This document shows, one piece after another, positions 4,252-39,909 of a stretch of 39,909 bases of DNA. The stretch lies in IMG/VR virus record IMGVR_UViG_3300023442_000007, positions 1-39,909 of that record. The stretch is one strand, 5' to 3'. The stretch is from a virus. Below the pieces are notes generated by a model. It ran no database searches. It was given only the letters and a program-made list of their open reading frames with translations, and was not told the origin of the DNA. The first letter of the stretch is position 1, and the number at the start of each line of letters is the position of its first letter. Position numbers and translations under genes: made by a program.

Positions 4252-4509
4252 TTACTCATCTTGTTTTACCTCTTCATAAGTTTCGTTAAATATATCTAAT
4301 CTACATGGGTATATTTCACCCTTAATTCCTTTAATGATATAATCACCAACATTAGCTTTCATGCTACCCTCTAAAGTTCCTATAATTAAACAACCTTTAT
4401 CTAAAGATATTCCTCTATCAGTACCACTAGCTAAAGCCAATATCTCTTGTGAGTTTTGACCATTCCATTGCAATGCTTCAATAACAACTGGTTTCTTCTT
4501 GTATTTCAT
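4252..4509 (-). CDS. PGDYG-type small phage protein
   Basis: This 85-aa protein has the pattern of a common phage family: an N-terminal YKKKPVVIEALQW, a central LEGSM, then VGDYIIKG and YPCRLDIF, ending in a TYE segment. Homologs occur in very many phages and are usually called PGDYG-domain or hypothetical proteins; function is unknown. Its start lies inside the end of the methyltransferase gene (32-bp overlap). Confidence 0.72.
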   Translation of the reverse strand: MKYKKKPVVIEALQWNGQNSQEILALASGTDRGISLDKGCLIIGTLEGSMKANVGDYIIKGIKGEIYPCRLDIFNETYEEVKQDE

Positions 4510-5176
4510 CTTGTTTACTTTCTGTTATACGTTTAGTTGCAATATCAAAGTATTCTTTGTCTAATTCAATACCTATAAAATCTCTGTTTAAATTATTACA
4601 AGCGACTCCAGTTGTGCCAGAACCCATAGTAAAATCTAAGACTGTATCACCAATATTACTAGAATTTTCAATCAAAACTTCCAATAAATCAATAGGTTTT
4701 TCTGTAGGGTGCAATTTATTTTTAACATTTTTAAAGTTAAGGACAGAACGAGTACCACAATTATTTATTTTCTTAGCTTTACCCTTTCTAAAAAATATAA
4801 TGTACTCGTGGCTATCCATGTAATACATGTTAGTTATACAATTGTCTTTTGCCCAAACTAATGTTTTAAATATATTAAACCCTGCTTTAGAAACCTCAAT
4901 AAGCATTTTGCTTAGGTTTTTATTATTAGTAAATAAGTATCCATGTGAACCTTCTTTTAAAATCTTATGCAGATATTTTAAATAATCACTTTCTTTTAAA
5001 TTGTTATGTTTGAATATTTTACCATCTTTTGATAGTTTTGTTTTTAACATACCACCTGTACCCCCAGAGCAACCCCTTGAGGTAACTAAGTATGGAGGGT
5101 CTGTTAAAACCATATCAATACTATTGCTAGGTATTTTTTGCATTGCCTCTAAGCAATCTCCGTGTATTAATTTCAT
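4478..5176 (-). CDS. DNA adenine-N6 / cytosine-N4 methyltransferase, beta class
   Basis: This 232-aa protein carries the catalytic motif DPPY at residues 26-29 and, much later, the AdoMet-binding motif FTMGSGTTG followed by IGIELDKEYF. Having the catalytic motif before the AdoMet motif defines the beta class of amino-methyltransferases. No restriction enzyme gene is nearby, so it is an orphan enzyme, most likely protecting phage DNA from host restriction or marking it. The recognition sequence cannot be read from the protein. The gene lies in the early operon with 32 bp overlap into the PGDYG gene. Confidence 0.9.
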   Translation of the reverse strand: MKLIHGDCLEAMQKIPSNSIDMVLTDPPYLVTSRGCSGGTGGMLKTKLSKDGKIFKHNNLKESDYLKYLHKILKEGSHGYLFTNNKNLSKMLIEVSKAGFNIFKTLVWAKDNCITNMYYMDSHEYIIFFRKGKAKKINNCGTRSVLNFKNVKNKLHPTEKPIDLLEVLIENSSNIGDTVLDFTMGSGTTGVACNNLNRDFIGIELDKEYFDIATKRITESKQDEIQEETSCY

Positions 5177-6346: not shown

Positions 6347-6569
6347 TATCACTCCTTAGTTTTTTAATTGCTATTGCACATTCTAAATGGTCATCACTTG
6401 CGAAGCCACCTTGCATATCACTACAGATTTTTAAGCATTTATCAATAGTTTCATTCCGTACTTGTTCTAACAAATCAACTATAGATAACTCAAAACCATA
6501 ATGACATTCAGCATCTTTTCCGTATATTTTCAGTATTAATTCTTTTGCCAATTCTTCACTTCTACTCAT
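6339..6569 (-). CDS. Hypothetical early protein, 76 aa
   Basis: A short helical protein with three cysteines and acidic N-terminal helices; no motif is recognised. GGAGG stands 7-11 nt before the ATG, within the end of the upstream repeat-protein gene. Its own end overlaps the next start by 8 bp. Confidence 0.6.
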   Translation of the reverse strand: MSRSEELAKELILKIYGKDAECHYGFELSIVDLLEQVRNETIDKCLKICSDMQGGFASDDHLECAIAIKKLRSDNE

Positions 6570-7227
6570 GACTTGCCTCCTCCATAAATGATTTTAATAA
6601 CTTTACACTGTTATCTGGACGCTTTCCTGTTTTACAATATATTAATAGTAATTTTATTTTAGCAGCCATAGCAGAAGCCCAAGCAGAATCAGCAGCACAA
6701 GAAGAAGCATCAAAATCTCTAGCAGAAGCCCAAGCAGAAGCACTAGCAGAAGCACTAGCAGCAGCACAAGAAGAAGCACAAGAAGCATCAAAATCTTTAG
6801 CAGAAGCCCAAGCAGAAGCACTAGCAGAAGCACAAGAAGAAACACAAGAAGAATCAGAATCTCTAGCAGAAGCACTAGCAGAAGCACTAGCAGAAGACAA
6901 TTCTGCATTGGTTGTTAATCCATTAGCATAATTTCTAGCTACTACCAATGCACTAATACTTCTTTCATCTTCCATTAAATGCTCTACCTGTTTAGCACAA
7001 TCAACAGCAAAATGTCGCCATAGCAGATAATACTTATCGTCTACAACTCTTAAAGCCCATAGTGTATCCTCATAATCATTACTATTATATATTTGCTCAA
7101 AAGTTATAGGTGTATCTTTGCCATATTTTTTAATACCGCCTAAATTTTTTGCTAGTTTTTTATAACTATCTACACAAGCTTCATTTTCTTTTAATTGTCT
7201 AAATGTTGTTGTGATTATATGTTTCAT
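6562..7227 (-). CDS. Phage protein with a long Ser-Ala low-complexity segment
   Basis: This 221-aa protein has an ordinary N-terminal domain (about residues 1-108). It is followed by about 80 residues of ASASA dipeptides broken by AWASA and RDFDAS-type units with several cysteines, then a short basic C-terminal domain. Phage proteins with such Ala-rich runs are known from early regions, but their role is not. The DNA of the segment is nearly repetitive, and a second minus-strand frame stays open through it (6654-6908) and would encode a leucine-rich hydrophobic peptide; that frame is probably a by-product. The gene overlaps its neighbours by 4 and 8 bp. Confidence 0.72.
   Translation of the reverse strand: MKHIITTTFRQLKENEACVDSYKKLAKNLGGIKKYGKDTPITFEQIYNSNDYEDTLWALRVVDDKYYLLWRHFAVDCAKQVEHLMEDERSISALVVARNYANGLTTNAELSSASASASASARDSDSSCVSSCASASASAWASAKDFDASCASSCAAASASASASAWASARDFDASSCAADSAWASAMAAKIKLLLIYCKTGKRPDNSVKLLKSFMEEASHE
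6661..6903 (-). repeat. Degenerate repeats encoding Ser-Ala units
   Basis: Hexamers of the form GCACTA/GCAGAA and longer units containing AATCTCTAGCAGAAGCCCAA recur in this coding segment. They are built from a 6-bp period with inserted units, so slippage could change copy number without breaking the frame. The repeats explain the Ser-Ala tract in the overlapping gene. Confidence 0.7.
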
Positions 7228-7427
7228 GACTGCACACTTTCTATATAATTTCTGAAGTCATTCCTTATATCATCTGTTTCTGTAATAACCATTTCAAGCT
7301 GTGTGCCTAAATCATTATTCATAACAACCAGTTTTTCAATATAATCATTTAATATGAAATATGCTAAACCTGCTAGTAATAATATAAACACTATGAAACT
7401 AGCTAATACGCTTTCTAAATCACTCAT
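7224..7427 (-). CDS. Single-pass membrane protein with coiled coil, 67 aa
   Basis: A hydrophobic helix at about residues 8-27 (SVLASFIVFILLLAG) is followed by a charged, heptad-like stretch. This resembles small phage membrane proteins and Rz-like topologies, but the gene is far from the lysis genes and no function can be named. AAGGAG lies before the start, which overlaps the upstream stop by 1 bp; the end overlaps the Ser-Ala gene by 4 bp. Confidence 0.65.
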   Translation of the reverse strand: MSDLESVLASFIVFILLLAGLAYFILNDYIEKLVVMNNDLGTQLEMVITETDDIRNDFRNYIESVQS

Positions 7428-8332
7428 TATTTTATCTCCTTGAATTTACCTTTATCATCTAAACCATAAAAAACATTTTCTTTTAGTCCTCTGCAACCAA
7501 TTTTACCAGTTACTACTTTTATAGGCTTATTGTTTTTGAAAAATGTTAAAGCAATAAGCGTGCCTTTAACTCCTTTTACTTTGGAGTTTTCACCACAAGA
7601 TACTGCTACTCCGTATTTACCGTTTATTGCCTGCTGGTTAGAGTTACCTGATGATGCCTGCTTACTATAGCTACCTGATGATGCCTGCTGGCTATAGTTA
7701 CCTGATGATGCCTGCTGGTTAGAGTTACCTGATGATGCCTGCTGGTTAGAGCTACCTGATGATGCCTGCTTACTATAGTTACCTGATGATGCCTGCTTAC
7801 TATAGCCAGCTGATGATGCCTGCTGGCTATAGTTACCTGATGATGCCTGCTGGCTAAAGTCACCTGATGATGCCTGCTGGCTAAAGTCACCTGATGATGC
7901 CTGCTGGTTAGAGTCACCTGATGATGCCTGCTGGTTAGAGTCACCTGATGATGCCTGCTGGCTAAAGTCACCTGATGATGCCTGCTGGTTAGAGTTATCA
8001 TTTATATCTAATATATCTAGCATATAACCACATGTTTTATTAATAAAAGTACCTAGTTCAAGCTTGGCTTCAATTTTAATATAACCAAATGATATTTTGT
8101 TATCTTTTTCAACTTCTTTGCCAACGCTAACTTCTGCAAACTCAATCAAATTACAATTACTATCTAACAAATCATAGTAACATAAAACATCTAATGGGTT
8201 GTAACAGGCATGAAATCCACTTTCACAATTAACAACTTTACCTTTATGTTTATATTCTTTACCAACTTCATATTTAAACCCTCTACATGTTAAATCTTTA
8301 TTAAATGCTTTATATGCCTTTTTTGTTTTCAT
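7427..8332 (-). CDS. DUF7666-like protein with 14 nonapeptide repeats
   Basis: The 301-aa protein starts with a conserved phage domain (about residues 1-110: YKAFNKDLTCRGFKYEVG, then CESGFHACYNPLDVL). It then carries about 14 copies of a 9-residue unit of the form QQASSGDSN, and ends with a conserved C-terminal domain beginning GKYGVAVSCGENSKVKG. Related phage proteins have the same plan with other repeat units, so the middle probably forms a regular beta-type solenoid or stalk of variable length. Repeats differ mainly at two positions (DF, DS, NY, SY and others). The role is unknown. GAGGAGA precedes the start. Confidence 0.75.
   Translation of the reverse strand: MKTKKAYKAFNKDLTCRGFKYEVGKEYKHKGKVVNCESGFHACYNPLDVLCYYDLLDSNCNLIEFAEVSVGKEVEKDNKISFGYIKIEAKLELGTFINKTCGYMLDILDINDNSNQQASSGDFSQQASSGDSNQQASSGDSNQQASSGDFSQQASSGDFSQQASSGNYSQQASSAGYSKQASSGNYSKQASSGSSNQQASSGNSNQQASSGNYSQQASSGSYSKQASSGNSNQQAINGKYGVAVSCGENSKVKGVKGTLIALTFFKNNKPIKVVTGKIGCRGLKENVFYGLDDKGKFKEIK
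7622..7999 (-). repeat. 27-bp tandem repeat array, about 14 units
   Basis: The unit contains GATGATGCCTGCT in nearly every copy, with variation concentrated in the remaining 14 bp (GGTTAGAGTTACCT, GGCTAAAGTCACCT, TACTATAGTTACCT). Twenty-seven is a multiple of three, so gain or loss of units keeps the reading frame. The array is coding and has no spacers, so it is not a CRISPR. Confidence 0.9.
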
Positions 8333-9477: not shown

Positions 9478-9752
9478 TATACAATATCCCTATTAAGTTC
9501 AGTTAATAATCTAAGTGTATTTTTACTTGCCTTTTTAATTATTTGTTTTTTAATAATTGCTAACAAAGCTAGTTGCATTGATATAGTACTATCTTTTGAA
9601 TATCTAGCAATATAATAACGCCCACACATCCAGCCATGTTTTGATATTTTATAAACATTATTTTCAGTTACGCCTAAAAATTCAGCTGTTTCTTTTGTGC
9701 CTATTTTTTGCTTTACAATGCTCCCATGTATTCCATATATAATTATTTCCAT
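9477..9752 (-). CDS. Small protein with possible helix-turn-helix, 91 aa
   Basis: I start at ATG 9752, with AAGGAG 9 nt upstream; the open frame extends to 9800 inside the cytosine methyltransferase gene but without such a site. The stretch GTKETAEFLGVTENNVYKI (about residues 19-37) fits a helix-turn-helix of the kind that reads DNA in small phage regulators, followed by a basic C-terminal half. It could regulate the early operon. The match is by pattern only. Confidence 0.55.
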   Translation of the reverse strand: MEIIIYGIHGSIVKQKIGTKETAEFLGVTENNVYKISKHGWMCGRYYIARYSKDSTISMQLALLAIIKKQIIKKASKNTLRLLTELNRDIV

Positions 9753-10603
9753 TTTAAAATCTCCTTTATTATTGTTAATGTCATTCCATTGCCAATGCAT
9801 GACAAGCTTTTATTTAAACTAAAACCAGTTTGTAAAGTAGTATATCCAACTGGTAAAGTTTGTAATTTCTCAACTTCTTGTAATGTTAAGTTTCTATATT
9901 TTCCCTCTCTATTAGTTATTTTGATTTTAGTTGCAGCCCTTGCAGCAGGTAAACAGCTAAATCTACTATGAATATAATAAGCCCTATCCTGTTGCGAATT
10001 ATAACCTTTCCCGCTAACGTCAAATTGAATATAATTTTTAGTTTCCTTGTAATTATACTGCTTATAACATTCTGTATATGGCAGTTTTTTATCAATTATA
10101 TCAATAATACGTAAATATTTATTATTAATTGGTTGCATATCCCAGTTAAACCAATAAAACCTGTCTCTATTTTGTGCAGAAACCAAGTTGCTATTTATTC
10201 TAACTGGTTGCACCCCTAGCAATTCACTTATAATATTATGATATTTCGTTTTAGTATTTACATTCTCAAGTAAAAATTTTATTTCAGGGTTTATTTTTCT
10301 AACATAATTTAAGATATCAACAAAACTATAAAATAAACTTGATTTTTCACCGCTTAATCCAGTAGCATTATTATTAGCAATACTTAAATCTTGGCAAGGC
10401 GTTCCAGCAATAATTAAATCTATTTCATGCCAAGGTATATCCCACTCACGCCAATTTTTTATATCACCTACCTGTATAATGTTATTATGGTTTTTTTCTG
10501 CTATTGCTATTGCATAACTATCTATTTCGCTTGCATAGTATTTGCCTTGTGGTATTGCAACCCTAGCCGTTGCTATGCCATCGCATAAACTTAGTGTAGC
10601 CAT
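9743..10603 (-). CDS. C5-cytosine DNA methyltransferase (Dcm family)
   Basis: The 286-aa enzyme shows the ordered motifs of 5-methylcytosine methyltransferases: LSLCDGIATARVA (AdoMet site, motif I), TPCQDLS with catalytic Cys70 (motif IV), LLENVNT (motif VI), QNRDRFYW (motif VIII), the LTLQEVEKLQTLP region before the end, and GNGM (motif X). The target-recognition region is short, as in phage solitary enzymes. No restriction enzyme is adjacent, so it probably shields phage DNA or alters its reading. It is the second methyltransferase of this early operon, of a different chemistry from the one at 4478. Confidence 0.93.
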   Translation of the reverse strand: MATLSLCDGIATARVAIPQGKYYASEIDSYAIAIAEKNHNNIIQVGDIKNWREWDIPWHEIDLIIAGTPCQDLSIANNNATGLSGEKSSLFYSFVDILNYVRKINPEIKFLLENVNTKTKYHNIISELLGVQPVRINSNLVSAQNRDRFYWFNWDMQPINNKYLRIIDIIDKKLPYTECYKQYNYKETKNYIQFDVSGKGYNSQQDRAYYIHSRFSCLPAARAATKIKITNREGKYRNLTLQEVEKLQTLPVGYTTLQTGFSLNKSLSCIGNGMTLTIIKEILKWK

Positions 10604-33312: not shown

Positions 33313-34158
33313 ATGTATTTAACTTGTAGAGTGTGTAAGAGGATAAAACTTACTGAAGAATATGAATACAGAAAAGATACTGGTAAACATAGAACTGAAT
33401 GCAAGGATTGTCGTGTAACAGTTAATCGTATGAGGCGTAAAGGTGAGCCTAATATAAAAGATACTGGTTTATTCTTTACAGACCCACATATGCCATTCCA
33501 CCACCCAGATATGATACCGTTTTTATCTTCCGTAGACGATGTTTATAAGCCTAAATGGTTCGTTTGTGGTGGTGATGAATTTGATAATCATTGGGGTAAC
33601 TTCCACCAGATAGACCCAAGTGTTCCTAATCCTGATGCAGAGCTTGAAATGGCTAGAGATGCTATGGTAGAGCTAGCAGGGCGTTTCCCAAATGTTCAAG
33701 CAGTTATATCTAATCATGGAGATTTAGCACTTAGAAAGTGTGTTAAAAATAATTTCCCTAGCCAACTATCACCTACATATCACGAAATAACACAAGCTCC
33801 TAATACTTGGACATGGCAAGAGAAGGTGCGTATAGGTGATGTAGTATTTGAACATGGTGATAAAGCTACAAGTGCTAACCCATTTATACATGCAAGCAAT
33901 GCTAGTTTATTTTTAGGTGAGCCTGTTAAAGTAATGATGGGGCATAATCATTCAAGGTTTGAGCTTATAATGAATAGATTTGGTTATGATAATATATGGG
34001 GTGCTTACGGTGGGTGTTTAATAAACTTATCCTTACCTGCATTTAAGTATTGGCGTAGTAAACCAGTAGCATTAGGTTGTGTTGTATTTTTAGATGGTAT
34101 GCCTAAACATATACCTATGAGATTAGACATTCACGGTAGGTGGACTGGAAATTTATAG
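33313..34158 (+). CDS. Metallophosphoesterase fused to an N-terminal zinc ribbon
   Basis: The first 40 residues carry Cys5, Cys8, Cys30, Cys33 in a zinc ribbon of the type usually found at the start of phage HNH or endonuclease VII proteins. The rest has the metallophosphoesterase motifs in order: D57-P-H59, GDEFDNH (87-93), N134-H135, H181-G-D and GHNH (210-213). These would bind two metal ions and cleave phosphoesters, perhaps nucleic acid brought by the ribbon. The gene is late, after the spanins, and has its own gap. The substrate is unknown. Confidence 0.8.
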   Translation: MYLTCRVCKRIKLTEEYEYRKDTGKHRTECKDCRVTVNRMRRKGEPNIKDTGLFFTDPHMPFHHPDMIPFLSSVDDVYKPKWFVCGGDEFDNHWGNFHQIDPSVPNPDAELEMARDAMVELAGRFPNVQAVISNHGDLALRKCVKNNFPSQLSPTYHEITQAPNTWTWQEKVRIGDVVFEHGDKATSANPFIHASNASLFLGEPVKVMMGHNHSRFELIMNRFGYDNIWGAYGGCLINLSLPAFKYWRSKPVALGCVVFLDGMPKHIPMRLDIHGRWTGNL

Positions 34159-34191: not shown

Positions 34192-34362
34192 ATGAAAAGA
34201 GCAACTAGATTATTTTTAGATGTATTAATAGTATGTATGATATTTATAGGTACATATTATGCAAGTAACTTGTTTTATAACGAGGGTTTTGAAATAGGCT
34301 TGCAAAGTGGGTTTGAGCAGGGTTATAGTATTGCTATGTTTTTTGCTTGTAGAGAAGTATAA
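34192..34362 (+). CDS. Small single-pass membrane protein, 56 aa
   Basis: ATG 34192 follows GGAGGT and opens a frame with a basic start, a hydrophobic helix (LFLDVLIVCMIFIGTYYA) and a short Gly-rich tail (EIGLQSGFEQGYS). Last gene of the rightward region; its end overlaps the end of the opposite VRR-NUC gene by 29 bp. The ribosome site makes it likely real. Function unknown. Confidence 0.6.
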   Translation: MKRATRLFLDVLIVCMIFIGTYYASNLFYNEGFEIGLQSGFEQGYSIAMFFACREV

Positions 34363-34744
34363 TTTTATCAAAATCATCATTTGAATCACATATACCAGAT
34401 ATTCCACCACGTTCCTTTACCATTTTAAGGAAAGAGCGTTGTTCACCTGTTGCTCCATAGCTTCCATTTTTATCCTTTTTAACCTCAATAGCTGTAAAAA
34501 CTCCTACCTCTTTACCAATCATATCTTTTGTTATTTTAATGGTTGTTATACCAATCTGGTCAGAGCCGCCTTTGATATTCCCCAAACCAAATCTTAAAAA
34601 CATTATGTTAGTAAGTATTTGCTTACCATTTAGTTTCATAGGCTTACCACGGTAAGCACTCCCAATATTATTTTTAAATAAAAGGCATTTACTTTTTACT
34701 GCATGTAATACTAGGTTTTGTTCTACTCTTTTTTCACTAGTCAT
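34334..34744 (-). CDS. VRR-NUC domain nuclease
   Basis: The 136-aa protein has GGSDQIG, then FTAIEVKKD and the later GATGEQRSFLKMVKERGG, which is the VRR-NUC fold (aspartate, E-x-K and Gln of a PD-(D/E)XK active site). Stand-alone phage VRR-NUC enzymes act on branched or flapped DNA. It is the last gene of the leftward recombination operon, after the helicase. It overlaps the rightward 34192-34362 gene tail to tail, so the operons collide here without a spacer. Confidence 0.85.
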   Translation of the reverse strand: MTSEKRVEQNLVLHAVKSKCLLFKNNIGSAYRGKPMKLNGKQILTNIMFLRFGLGNIKGGSDQIGITTIKITKDMIGKEVGVFTAIEVKKDKNGSYGATGEQRSFLKMVKERGGISGICDSNDDFDKIILLYKQKT

Positions 34745-35045
34745 TTGTACAGCTTTCTATATTAACAAATTCTTCTATTGAATTTACTTTTTTTCCATTA
34801 ATATCTAATGACTCTTTGCCAAACTTATTCTCAAACACAAACCAGTTCAAAGCTCCAATATGTATTCCAGTTGTTTTTGCTACAACATCAACCATGCTAT
34901 CAAACTCTTTAAATATTAAATCAAAAAAATCACAATCTGGTTGAACACCCAAAATTCCTCTTGATAAATCAATATAAATAACATCATTTAATCTTTTCAC
35001 ATCTTCAAGCATTGCTATTAGCATTATAGTTTTTTCTTTATTCAT
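34737..35045 (-). CDS. Hypothetical protein between helicase and VRR-NUC, 102 aa
   Basis: Unrecognised acidic protein with helical segments (LIAMLEDVKRLNDVIYI, then FKEFDSMVDVVAKT). It overlaps both neighbours (4 and 8 bp), so it is co-translated with the helicase and nuclease and may be a partner or accessory subunit. Confidence 0.65.
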   Translation of the reverse strand: MNKEKTIMLIAMLEDVKRLNDVIYIDLSRGILGVQPDCDFFDLIFKEFDSMVDVVAKTTGIHIGALNWFVFENKFGKESLDINGKKVNSIEEFVNIESCTND

Positions 35046-36574
35046 CTTCTTTTTCTCCTTCTAGTGTTATATTTATAATAAGCCCAACCTTCTTTGTGAC
35101 CTCTTGCATCTGCTATTTCTTGGCAACCTTTAAGTGTATCACGTAATTCTATCCCTGTCTTGTTTTTCCACTGTATTTCAGCCCAACCGTTTTTATATTT
35201 CATTGTTCCTTCAATTCTAACTAGGTCTGTAAACGATTCAACTGTGCGTATTTCCTTCTTAACAGCCTCTTTGTGTTCTTTTGAGTTAATTAGATATAGT
35301 TCACCCTCAACTTCTTTAATATCCTTCCCATTGGCTTTGTACTCGTATTGACAGTACGGACAGCGTATAGACGGTCTATGAGGACTAAAACACTTTGGAC
35401 AACGCTTTATAGTTATTGAGTCATCTTCTGTTTTAGAGCGTTTCTTTTTCTTTTCTTCATTAAGCGACCATTTCCTTTCTTCATCTGGTAACAAATGTTG
35501 TTCATAATTTGAACCGTGGTCTAATATTAATGCATATTTCTTATCTGAAGCTTTAATAGAAGCTAATCTACCCTCCTGTGTGCTTAAATCAAAACCTTTA
35601 GCATAAACGGTTCGTAATCCACGACCCCACCATTGAATAACCCTTGAAAGAGAGTTACTAACAGTTAGCAATGAAACAACCTCAATAGCAGGCAAATCAA
35701 AACCCTCACCAAATAAATCAACATTGCTAAGTACTAATATTTTACCCTCTTCAAATTCTTTAATGGCGGTATCACGCTCTCTAAGAGGTGTTTTTCCGTC
35801 TAAGTGCTTTGCAGGTATTCCTTCTTTGTTATATCTTTCAACTATTTTCATTGATTGCTTTACATTACGTGCAAATATAACATTACGCTTACCCATAGCA
35901 TGTTTTTTGTAATACTCAATATTGTCACCTACTATGCGTGACTCAAAATTAGCCTTTTCTAGTGACTTCTTAGTGTACTCACCATTTGATATTAATAGTT
36001 CGCTGGTATCAATAACACTTGGAGCATAATATTTAAAGTCAACCAAGTAACCTTGCTCAATGAGCCATTTTGTTGTGCAAACTTCAACTATTTTATCAAA
36101 GTATTTCCCTAAAGAGCGTCCATCTAAGCGTATTGGAGTAGCAGTAAGACCGATATGTACCGAATTACTGTACTTTTTAAACACTTTATCCCATTGGTTC
36201 GCAGCCAGATGTTGTGATTCATCCCAAAATACTACATCAGGAATAGGTATATCATCAACACGGTTAACCAATGTATTAATACTAGCAATTTGTATTGGGT
36301 TTTTTTCAGTATATCTTTTCCCACCTTGTATGAAAGAAGCTTGTAAATCATGGCTTAAAAATGTATTTGAAGTTTGCGATATAAGCTCACGTCTATGACA
36401 AATAAATGTAGAAGTTTTACCTTTAACGTAACACCTTTGTGCCAAATCAGAAGATATAGCCGTTTTACCTCCTCCAGTTGGTAGAACAAGTAAAACACGC
36501 TTATTACCACCTTTTAATGAGGAAATAATGCCTTCTATAGCTTTCTTTTGATAATCTCTAAGTATGAACTTCAT
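35042..36574 (-). CDS. Superfamily 2 DExH helicase with C-terminal zinc finger
   Basis: 510 aa. The protein starts at the Q-like FILRDYQKKAI motif, followed by Walker A LPTGGGKTA, DESQH (motif II), GLTATPIR (motif III), and in the second RecA domain VIFARNVKQS, LSNVDLFGEGFDLPA and QWWGRGLRT (motif VI). A zinc finger CPKC-CPYC lies near residues 395-415, then a basic tail. This is the build of phage type III/UvrB-like helicases used in branch migration, recombination or replication restart. It is immediately followed by a nuclease gene; together they may process branched DNA. Confidence 0.9.
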   Translation of the reverse strand: MKFILRDYQKKAIEGIISSLKGGNKRVLLVLPTGGGKTAISSDLAQRCYVKGKTSTFICHRRELISQTSNTFLSHDLQASFIQGGKRYTEKNPIQIASINTLVNRVDDIPIPDVVFWDESQHLAANQWDKVFKKYSNSVHIGLTATPIRLDGRSLGKYFDKIVEVCTTKWLIEQGYLVDFKYYAPSVIDTSELLISNGEYTKKSLEKANFESRIVGDNIEYYKKHAMGKRNVIFARNVKQSMKIVERYNKEGIPAKHLDGKTPLRERDTAIKEFEEGKILVLSNVDLFGEGFDLPAIEVVSLLTVSNSLSRVIQWWGRGLRTVYAKGFDLSTQEGRLASIKASDKKYALILDHGSNYEQHLLPDEERKWSLNEEKKKKRSKTEDDSITIKRCPKCFSPHRPSIRCPYCQYEYKANGKDIKEVEGELYLINSKEHKEAVKKEIRTVESFTDLVRIEGTMKYKNGWAEIQWKNKTGIELRDTLKGCQEIADARGHKEGWAYYKYNTRRRKRR

Positions 36575-36791: not shown

Positions 36792-37241
36792 CTAAAACGG
36801 TATATCAGAGTCACACTCTGCTTGTGCTGTATTAACGCTCATGTCAACATCTTGCTTAGTTACTTCAGCCTTGGTTACGTTTTCTTGGTAGCCTTTATTA
36901 TCACCGCCTTTACTTCCAAGCATTTCCATTTTGCCGCCAAAATCAATAACAACTTCTGTTGAATATCTATCTTGACCTTCTTTGTCTTGCCACTTGCGAG
37001 TTTGTAACTTACCCCTGAAATATAATTTATCACCTTTATTTACATACTTCTGAACCACGTCTGCAAGCTTACCAAATACGACAACTTTATGCCATTCAGT
37101 TTTTTCTTGTTGTTCACCTTGTTTGTTTTTCCATCTTTCAGAAGTAGCAAGTGATATATTAGCAATATTATCACCAGATGTTGTTTTTCTGATTTCAGGG
37201 TCTTGTCCTACGTTTCCTACTAGTGTTACTTCGTTAGCCAT
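36792..37241 (-). CDS. ssb: Single-stranded DNA-binding protein (SSB)
   Basis: The start [18 protein letters not shown] is the typical OB-fold beginning; [14 protein letters not shown] and [11 protein letters not shown] follow in normal order. The C terminus ends in DSDIPF, the acidic tip that recruits host replication and repair proteins. ATG 37241 is chosen over the upstream ATG at 37286 because GGAGA lies 9 nt before it. It coats single strands for replication and recombination. Length 149 aa is normal. Confidence 0.95.
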
Positions 37242-37254
37242 TTTATTTATTCTC

Positions 37255-37824
37255 CTAAACATTAATTTTAATTCTTTTAATTCCAAAATCTTTTAGCTTT
37301 ATTTTGCACATTCTAAGGTCTTGATGATGAAAAACTATACCCTCTATATCTTTACCAGTTAGCCATGCTTTTAATCCAACAAAATCTCTTGGTGGCTGGT
37401 CTTTAAACACAAGTATTTTACTATTATGAAATACTAATTGATGTTTTTCATACCCCTCAATACCACCTTGCGATTTTTTACCTACTAATTCACATGTTCC
37501 ATCTATAATTTCAGTATTATGAAAAGCTTCCTTGAAATACTTGTCTTCTTTTTCTTTGAAATCAACCTTTAACCAACCAATCCTTTTGCCAGTTTTTTCG
37601 TCTATATTAATTTCTATAAATCCTAAAGGTGCAACTTTATTCTTTTTAACTTCACGCCTCTTATATAAGATTCCATTTTCAACCATTGCACACATACCAT
37701 CTAACTTTCTAGTTGCAACCCCCTCACCTTTAAATACCCATAGGCATTCTTCATTTTGAATATCTAAAACTTTACTTCTATCACCATTCCAATCACGTTG
37801 AAACATTGTTGGTACTTTTTTCAT
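37255..37824 (-). CDS. RNA ligase 1 (RLIG1/DUF5565) family nucleotidyltransferase
   Basis: This 189-aa protein has the ligase nucleotide-binding lysine in K40-L-D-G43, basic residues after strand two (KRREV, 55-59), GTCELVG at 109-115, EGIVFHH at 161-167 and the metal-site KIK at 174-176. GTCELVG, the Gly-rich GGIEGY and EGIVFHH parallel elements of the eukaryotic RNA ligase RLIG1 (C12orf29), so I assign it to that family. It lacks a DNA ligase OB domain. RLIG1 seals 5'-phosphate to 3'-OH RNA ends; here it might mend host-cleaved RNA or serve as the nick sealer of phage DNA. It lies between SSB and the recombination genes and is led by AAGGATATAG. Confidence 0.8.
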
Positions 37825-37834
37825 ATCTATATCC

Positions 37835-37894
37835 TTATACGTTTGATTTAATTTTTACTGTGTTCCTGTCACCTGTGTTATTATTTTCATCCAT
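37835..37894 (-). CDS. Putative 19-aa hydrophilic microprotein
   Basis: ATG 37894 directly follows the stop of the preceding gene (TAAATG), and GAGGAGATAAATAA provides a good ribosome site. The product is Asn/Asp-rich at the start and basic at the end. It may only be a coupling leader for the ligase gene, whose own site lies 10 bp later. Confidence 0.38.
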   Translation of the reverse strand: MDENNNTGDRNTVKIKSNV

Positions 37895-38425
37895 TTATTT
37901 ATCTCCTCTTAATTTTTTAATTTCATTCCAGTTTGCAGTTGCAATAGCTTTATCTTCAGCAGATAGTTTTGCACCCCACTCTTTAACATCTTTAGCCTTA
38001 ACTCCATCTTTAATTATTTCAGCTTTATCACGACCTTTAGGTAGCAATTTAACTGTATAAGGCTTTTTGCTTTTACTACTAGCTGTAAGTGAAATAGTAA
38101 ACGAAGATTTTATATCTGACATGTGGCTAATTCTAATTCCACCCACATTCTGACCTGCATATTTAACAGTGTCATCTCTGAATAACGTCATTGATTTACC
38201 AATATACTTATTACCATCACTCCCCCAAGCATTAACCATAACTCTTCTCATTGACTTGCATGGTTTCCACGGTTTGCCATTATCATTATTATAATGTATA
38301 GCAACTGGTTGGTCGCCTGCTAGTAATTTAAGTTCTGTTATTGTAATATTGATTGAACCTGCAAATAAGTCATCAGCATTAAGTTGGTCTGATTTTGCTT
38401 CAATGGTTTTTGTTAAGTCTTTCAT
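37895..38425 (-). CDS. Conserved phage protein next to YqaJ exonuclease, 176 aa
   Basis: Starts MKDLTKTIEAKSDQLNADDL and continues with GDQPVAIHY, GKPWKPCKSMRRVM and GGIRISHMSDI, a pattern that occurs beside YqaJ-type exonucleases in many phages of proteobacteria. The role is not known to me; by position it could be the annealing or ssDNA-handling partner of the exonuclease. It is downstream of, and overlaps, the exonuclease gene by 4 bp. GAGGAGA precedes its ATG. Confidence 0.75.
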   Translation of the reverse strand: MKDLTKTIEAKSDQLNADDLFAGSINITITELKLLAGDQPVAIHYNNDNGKPWKPCKSMRRVMVNAWGSDGNKYIGKSMTLFRDDTVKYAGQNVGGIRISHMSDIKSSFTISLTASSKSKKPYTVKLLPKGRDKAEIIKDGVKAKDVKEWGAKLSAEDKAIATANWNEIKKLRGDK

Positions 38426-39099
38426 AATGTTATCTCCTCTTCAATTGTTCGTTCTGTTAAAATGGTTTTGTGAGATTTTATGTTCTCATGGAAGTTGTTA
38501 ATAATATTTTCTACGTCTTTATTAAATAACTTAACAGCCTCTAATATAATTCCTTGCTTTTCTTGGTCTTCTTCAACCCTAATAACAGCCATAGGTAAAC
38601 CGCCGCTATATTGAATATAGTCAATCCACTTTCTTCCAGATACAAGCATTGCAGTATGTATTTGAATATCATGGTCTGAAGGAACTTCCCAATTTGCTAT
38701 AGTTTGTATTTGGTATTTTTGCAATCTTGATTTTATCTCAATTAAACCTTCTTCTCCCACCAATCCGTCAGGTGAATATCCTAAATCAAAACCGTGTTCG
38801 CTATTAACAATAAAACCAACCTCTTTAACTTCTGCAAAATTATCGTTATATAAATTACGTGCAATAACTTCGTCTGCACAGCCACGCAACATATCATCAT
38901 TAATATATGAAGGCTCAACATAATTAGTAATACGCTGTGCAGCCATTTCAAATGCATGAGTTTTGGTTTTGGCATTATTAGCAATCTTATATTTAGGCGT
39001 AATAATGTTCTTCATTTCACTTGCTGTAATAACTCCACAACGAGCCTTGAACCATTCTTCGCTACCTTGTGTCATTTTATCAAATACTTTTATTTTCAT
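38422..39099 (-). CDS. YqaJ/lambda-exonuclease family recombination nuclease
   Basis: The 225-aa protein begins with QGSEEWFKARCGVITAS, continues with LGYSPDGLVGEEGLIEIKSR and ends the core with DHDIQIHTAML. These provide the aspartate, E-x-K and glutamine of the PD-(D/E)XK active site of the YqaJ family. Such enzymes chew the 5' strand of double-stranded ends to start recombination with an annealing protein. It is the first gene of the leftward replication/recombination operon, just after the promoter at 39136-39163, and has AGGAAAT upstream. Confidence 0.92.
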   Translation of the reverse strand: MKIKVFDKMTQGSEEWFKARCGVITASEMKNIITPKYKIANNAKTKTHAFEMAAQRITNYVEPSYINDDMLRGCADEVIARNLYNDNFAEVKEVGFIVNSEHGFDLGYSPDGLVGEEGLIEIKSRLQKYQIQTIANWEVPSDHDIQIHTAMLVSGRKWIDYIQYSGGLPMAVIRVEEDQEKQGIILEAVKLFNKDVENIINNFHENIKSHKTILTERTIEEEITL

Positions 39100-39223: not shown

Positions 39224-39286
39224 CTAGGTTGAACAATAACAAACAAACACGTAAAAATGGCGTGTTATATGAATAAGGGCTATAAT

Positions 39287-39909
39287 ATGAGATACAATGT
39301 AAACGAAATAATATCTAATAATCCATTAGAAGTTATTATATCTAAGTATACCAATCTAAAGAAAAACGGCTCTGAATTTGTCGGGATATGTCCGTTTCAC
39401 GATGAACGTACTCCTTCCTTTCAGGTAGTGCCAAATAAGGGGTTTTTTTACTGTCAAGGTTGTGGTTCTGGAGGAGATGTAATTGCATTTATTAGAAAAA
39501 TACATAACTCTTCTTTTTGTGAAGCCTGTGAAATCCTAAATGGTAAAACTACAAATACAAAAGTAACAAAATTAGCAATAGCACACAAAGATATATATGA
39601 AGATTATAAAATAATTGGCGGTTTAATAGATATAAAGCCTTGTAAAAAAATAAAAATATACAACATAAAACAAGGTAAATTTAAGCACTATAATCCATTA
39701 AATGTTTACCAATATTATAATAAAGATATGAAAACAGTTGGTTATGTGTTTAGATTATTAATTAATGGTAATAAGATTACTCCTACAGTTCAGAATGTTA
39801 TTGATAAAAAGGGTGATATTTTTCCTGCTTTAATTCCTTTTAGTAAGCCTACCTGTTTATATGGCATGGAAACATTAAAAAGCGAAGGAACAATATTTGT
39901 TGTAGAGGG
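39287..39909 (+). CDS. DnaG-like primase, N-terminal part (CHC2 zinc finger); continues at the left end
   Basis: Starts at ATG 39287. The first 75 residues hold the CHC2-type zinc finger of bacterial and phage primases: CPFHDERTPSF, then YCQGCGSGGDVIAFI, giving C, H, C, C ligands. The Toprim core begins where the window stops (VVEG) and is complete at the left end of the window (to 617). Whole length after joining: 327 aa, short for a primase, without a helicase-binding domain; the helicase is the next gene. No strong Shine-Dalgarno: GAATAAGGGC lies upstream. Confidence 0.9.
   Translation, partial: MRYNVNEIISNNPLEVIISKYTNLKKNGSEFVGICPFHDERTPSFQVVPNKGFFYCQGCGSGGDVIAFIRKIHNSSFCEACEILNGKTTNTKVTKLAIAHKDIYEDYKIIGGLIDIKPCKKIKIYNIKQGKFKHYNPLNVYQYYNKDMKTVGYVFRLLINGNKITPTVQNVIDKKGDIFPALIPFSKPTCLYGMETLKSEGTIFVVE
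39654..39909. repeat. Right copy of the 256-bp contig end overlap
   Basis: Same sequence as 1-256 except three bases (C 39709, G 39768, C 39783). This copy keeps the primase frame open and so is probably the correct version. Confidence 0.9.

Follow-up and report, generated by a model that had tools for sequence, protein, structure and literature searches.

RNA ligases of the RLIG1 family have been described from human cells and from a virus. In human cells, RLIG1 (C12orf29) has been connected with RNA integrity during oxidative stress (PMC9931718), and Yasminevirus RLIG1 has a solved structure (PDB 9c6l/9c6m), in which residues K73, D75, R89, E174, H195, E240, and K253 matter (PMC11494293). 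The same 2024 PNAS paper places RLIG1 homologs in bacteria and viruses, includes a 'C. phage RLIG1' among its constructs, and describes a trial of bacterial and viral homologs on tRNA halves with 5'-phosphate and 3'-OH ends, which several of the homologs ligated (PMC11494293). Phage and bacterial members of the family had, in other words, been described before, and the protein reported here adds one more. In bacteria, ProFaNA found tRNA genes in >20% of DUF5565 (RLIG1) neighborhoods (PMC10364804), and jumbo phages are known that carry RNA-repair sets including TROVE and cREC (PMC7824862). A further point of reference is the T4 pair of Rnl1 and Pnk, which repairs tRNA against PrrC; Rnl1 is a lysyl-AMP RNA ligase, and the ligase reported here probably works similarly, in the same class of repair.

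The window, as we call the whole 39,909-nt stretch analyzed (IMG/VR record IMGVR_UViG_3300023442_000007), is probably a complete genome closing on itself, given that its two ends (1-256 and 39654-39909) overlap by 256 bp at 98.8%, with 3 mismatches. On its minus strand lies an ORF that, by sequence and structural model together, is established as a new, minimal RLIG1-family member with a complete predicted active site. The ORF and all of the motifs listed for it by a first-pass annotation made from the sequence, namely KLDG (residues 40-43), GTCELVG (109-115), EGIVFHH (161-167), and KIK (174-176), are present; upstream of the start codon is a plausible ribosome-binding stretch (AAGGATATAG), and the GC content of the gene (31%) is close to that of the genome (34%). 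The ligase and its motif residues, matched to Yasminevirus RLIG1, are as follows.

37255-37824, minus strand: predicted ATP-dependent 5'-3' RNA ligase of the RLIG1 family, NTase core only (189 aa, ATG start)
37696-37707, minus strand: motif I, K40-L-D42-G, with K40 the predicted adenylylated lysine (K73 in Yasminevirus, K57 in human RLIG1; PMC11494293)
37657-37659, minus strand: motif Ia, R56 (R89 in Yasminevirus RLIG1)
37489-37491, minus strand: motif III, E112 (E174 in Yasminevirus RLIG1)
37426-37428, minus strand: motif IIIa, H133 (H195 in Yasminevirus RLIG1)
37342-37344, minus strand: motif IV, E161 (E240 in Yasminevirus RLIG1)
37303-37305, minus strand: motif V, K174 (K253 in Yasminevirus RLIG1)

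Searched against Pfam-A, the 189-aa protein matched a single family, RLIG1 (PF17720, formerly DUF5565), with 28.1 bits and an E-value of 1.2e-6, above the gathering cut-off of 25 bits. PHROG 14301, annotated as 'RNA ligase', matched residues 1-184 at 2.5e-45, and NCBIfam held no model matching the protein. The Yasminevirus RLIG1 chain was matched by the window protein alone at 3.2e-10 (phmmer) and by an eight-sequence profile at 1.2e-22; haemagglutinin matches to the same profile (0.005 and weaker) were taken as chance. An AlphaFold2 model built on a 106-sequence alignment (pLDDT 95.5, pTM 0.86) displayed the RLIG1 nucleotidyltransferase fold with no extra RNA-binding domain. With this model, Foldseek returned 12 matches in the PDB at E<=0.001, all of them chains of the Yasminevirus enzyme (9c6l/9c6m; best E-value 7e-11, TM 0.79 by query length), and the next in rank was T4 Rnl1 (2c5u) at an E-value of 0.39. 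Because the profile, solved-structure, and fold tests all yield RLIG1 only, with the adenylation-core fold in place, the RLIG1/DUF5565 identity proposed in the first-pass annotation stands, as does its exclusion of T4 Rnl1, T4 Rnl2, and DNA ligases. T4 Rnl1 membership was rejected on the lack of a significant sequence or fold match and of a C-terminal RNA-binding domain, T4 Rnl2 membership on the lack of a PF09414 match, and membership of the ATP-dependent DNA ligases on the lack of a PF01068 match in the protein or the genome, of a second domain in the model, and of a significant fold match.

Two qualifiers in the same annotation did not survive comparison. Its statement that the overall length matches RLIG1 is contradicted by the numbers: the window protein has 189 aa, whereas the Pfam model spans 324 positions and the Yasminevirus chain 277 residues; the ligase is ~90 residues shorter than that chain, with little beyond the nucleotidyltransferase core. 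Its label of a eukaryotic type is misleading since all of the relatives we found are phage or bacterial, and the family is not especially eukaryotic.

The window protein and Yasminevirus RLIG1 share the same fold, the same seven catalytic residues, and the lack of an added RNA-binding domain, but differ in length and are only 18-22% identical where the folds align; unlike the window, Yasminevirus additionally carries numerous tRNA genes and a candidate Pnk (PMC11494293). All seven key Yasminevirus residues have aligned counterparts in the window protein (K40, D42, R56, E112, H133, E161, and K174), which do not vary across 139 sequences, except for H133 (138 of 139). This invariance is partly built in, as T38, K40, D42, G43, D75, T78, and W84 (window numbering) fell inside the peptide patterns used for fetching relatives, so that only R56, E112, H133, E161, and K174, which lie outside those patterns, provide independent evidence. 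Human RLIG1 is likewise a PF17720 protein, and its K57, D59, E195, E250, and K263 have counterparts here, but it is a longer protein that carries an additional segment (residues 81-111; PMC11494293). A protein this small and free of an added RNA-binding domain might have been expected of a ligase-fold adenylyltransferase whose function has been lost or altered (e.g., to protein or small-molecule AMPylation); we regard this as highly improbable, as the ligation motifs, including E161 of motif IV and K174 of motif V, are invariant in the 139 sequences, and Yasminevirus RLIG1, which similarly lacks an RNA-binding domain, ligates RNA (PMC11494293).

Relatives of the ligase are widely distributed. 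A tblastn search of annotated phages recovered 20 records with near full-length matches, all below 60% identity, including Cellulophaga phage phi10:1, mycobacteriophages (e.g., Thyatira and Collard), Nocardia phage NTR1, Burkholderia phage FLC9, and a 636-kb uncultured phage. The gp057 of phi10:1 and the RNA ligases of mycobacteriophages Thyatira, Gengar, Collard, and Paola are similar in length to the window protein and 38-39% identical to it over nearly their full length (tblastn), but their gene neighborhoods differ, with no operon in common. While a single-sequence scan of viral contigs yielded no relatives, an alignment-based profile scan succeeded, placing relatives in at least 340 contigs of viruses and at least 81 of bacterial genomes, of which 80 were kept from each set. 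Each of the 106 aligned members matched RLIG1 alone in Pfam, and the window protein grouped with viral contigs L009-L014.

In the window, the ligase sits in a minus-strand operon ordered as YqaJ-type exonuclease, phrog_11517 protein, ligase, single-strand DNA-binding protein (SSB), a 65-aa protein, helicase, a 102-aa protein, and a resolvase-like nuclease, with a promoter-like TTGACA-16-TATAGT (39163-39136, minus strand) upstream of the YqaJ gene. The placement of the ligase between SSB and the YqaJ block was thus read correctly at first pass, with the phrog_11517 gene intervening on the YqaJ side. The recognizable neighbors, and a phosphoesterase discussed below, are listed here.

38422-39099, minus strand: YqaJ-type exonuclease, first operon gene (PF09588, 1.6e-13)
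37895-38425, minus strand: phrog_11517 protein (PHROG), between YqaJ and the ligase
36792-37244, minus strand: SSB, next gene downstream of the ligase (PF00436, 2.2e-38)
35042-36574, minus strand: DNA helicase (phrog_16, 1.1e-97)
34334-34744, minus strand: endonuclease/Holliday junction resolvase-like protein (phrog_93, 2.4e-13; phrog_5702, 4.2e-6)
33313-34158, plus strand: metallophosphoesterase (phrog_221, 4.8e-26)

Several other features of the window were noted. A primase-side ORF at 39257 runs on at the window start, and two proteins (6562-7227 and 7427-8332, minus strand) carry low-complexity tandem repeats of SASA type and QQASSGD type, respectively, with long alternative-frame ORFs inside their genes. 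Two DNA methyltransferases of N6/N4 and C5 type (4478-5176 and 9743-10603, minus strand; the assignment of ORFs to Pfam families was inferred from sequence) are possible anti-restriction genes.

Such an operon invites the reading that the ligase serves phage DNA, sealing nicks or RNA-DNA junctions after YqaJ/SSB recombination or in replication, and so takes the place of a DNA ligase. Consistent with this, no ATP-dependent DNA ligase (PF01068) was found in the genome; nor was a second ligase of any kind seen in the Pfam scan of ~40 window proteins or in the DNA ligase search, as the first-pass annotation had also reported, and PF01068 exceeded the cut-off in just 2 of 50 virus records containing relatives. 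Small phages commonly rely on the host DNA ligase and often lack their own, and the missing gene is for that reason weak evidence. Against a DNA role, the model contains neither an OB domain nor any other DNA-ligase domain, and human RLIG1 leaves both nicked DNA and splinted nicks unsealed (PMC11494293; PMC9931718). The position in the YqaJ-SSB-helicase operon is, moreover, not conserved: it was unique to the window genome in our sample, yqaJ or SSB homologs were detectable in only five other ligase loci (all at least four genes away), and one locus sharing yqaJ-phrog_11517 with the window (L169) has no RLIG1-family ligase in the slot. DNA nick sealing, one of the two roles put forward at first pass, is thus unlikely, and the operon position may instead represent a lineage-specific route to expression.

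Across 122 ligase groups, scarcely any neighbor family recurred, and when the two genes flanking the ligase on either side were tallied by Pfam and PHROG family in ~70 viral groups, no dominant partner emerged, so the gene seems to travel by itself. Standing alone is its commonest state elsewhere, and neighbors of RNA type (Ro60/TROVE, RtcB, Rnl2, phosphoesterases, and tRNA) are a minority: within two genes of the ligase, RtcB, TROVE, and a phosphoesterase were each tallied just once in the ~70 viral groups (raw counts). At the scale of whole records, RtcB and AAA_33 kinases were each present in 3 of 50 and a metallophosphoesterase in 6. TROVE/Ro60 was likewise found in 3 of 50 (a raw count over a nearly identical set, with L088 replacing L074), each time ~3 kb or less from the ligase; it adjoins the ligase in a 26-kb contig (L088), lies 1-2 kb away in a 96-kb contig (L078), and in a 71-kb contig (L087) lies ~2 kb away, with a phosphoesterase at ~4 kb. 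In the phage record of L072, RtcB is the next gene after the ligase, and a second RtcB was observed near the other end (L072:4987-6761 and record G037, 36903-37886). Of 74 viral ligase groups, 6 had tRNA genes (again a raw count); in L007 and L057, tRNA arrays lie within ~1-3 kb of the ligase. The richest surroundings were seen in six Chryseobacterium/Weeksellaceae loci (L105, L106, L109, L112, L115, and L117), apparent RNA-repair islands in which an Rnl2-type ligase (in L115:4965-5978, matching the Rnl2 profile at 9.2e-23) lies immediately upstream of the RLIG1-type ligase. Their other parts, which vary by locus, include a cyclic-phosphate cREC protein, two ATP-grasp proteins (R2K and RimK), a metallo-beta-lactamase, a nucleoside hydrolase, a phosphoesterase, exoribonucleases, TROVE, and several tRNA genes. 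This minority of RNA-type neighbors points to RNA, not DNA, as the substrate.

Of the two roles first offered, it is therefore RNA repair that is favored, by the RNA-type neighbors in relatives and by the human RLIG1 data. We consider it likely that the window protein is a stand-alone RLIG1-type sealer that re-joins 5'-phosphate/3'-OH breaks in RNA, probably tRNA, made by host defense or stress nucleases, with the physiological substrate inferred. Weighing against an RNA role, the recognizable operon neighbors are DNA recombination proteins, and neither a tRNA gene nor an RNA-repair partner was found in the window. By analogy, ATP would adenylylate K40, the AMP would be transferred to the RNA 5'-phosphate, and the 3'-OH would then attack to seal the strand. 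The RNA re-joined during infection would be that of the host or the phage, with tRNA anticodon loops the most plausible substrate. The ligase may act directly on breaks already carrying a 5'-phosphate and a 3'-OH, because no kinase, cyclic-phosphate-processing, or RtcB gene was found in the apparently complete genome (kinase, RtcB, and TROVE were absent from the ~40 window proteins scanned with Pfam, a set that includes only a minority of the structural genes).

Candidate cutters would be Toprim nucleases (AriB of PARIS among them) and VapC toxins. PIN-domain VapC toxins leave 5'-phosphate/3'-OH ends. AriB cuts tRNA to give confirmed 3'-OH ends and, as expected from a two-metal mechanism, 5'-phosphates (PMC12409363), so a ligase without a kinase could reverse cuts of this class directly. 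PrrC-type cuts would require healing by host enzymes or by the phage phosphoesterase. In another reading, RNA is repaired only together with host end-healing partners (a kinase and a 2',3'-cyclic phosphatase) or the metallophosphoesterase at 33313-34158, and PrrC-type breaks are handled too. A phosphoesterase near an RLIG1-type ligase does recur (the Chryseobacterium islands, L056, L087, and L135), and the window encodes one; the N-terminal stretch of that protein resembles part of endonuclease VII-type proteins (phrog_1035, 1.4e-4). The window phosphoesterase is, however, encoded on the opposite strand in a different, lysis-side gene block, and its family (phrog_221) is a general one among phages; its partnership with the ligase is unsupported on these grounds, and none of the other ligases was found to have a close homolog of it alongside. 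The first-pass annotation saw no polynucleotide kinase, and none was found in the scanned proteins, but the partnership that it suggested with this phosphoesterase cannot be shown. We accordingly rejected the pairing as an established fact, and a T4-type Pnk-Rnl repair system was also rejected, with the phosphoesterase as a candidate only. Overall, dependence on healing partners appears unlikely.

Returning to the stand-alone sealer, we tentatively raise the possibility, speculative at the level of the family, that phage RLIG1 proteins are single-gene counter-defenses dedicated to 5'-phosphate/3'-OH cutters of tRNA and rRNA (AriB/PARIS, VapC, and other Toprim nucleases) with no need for healing enzymes, the animal enzyme belonging to the same phage-rich family. 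In the literature examined, we found no phage RLIG1 tested in infection, and human RLIG1 is still without a firm physiological substrate. The window ligase illustrates the phage side of the family in minimal, clean form, and if phage RLIG1 rescues infection from tRNA-cutting defenses, it would offer a simple genetic assay for ligase recognition as well as a small RNA ligase for laboratory work.
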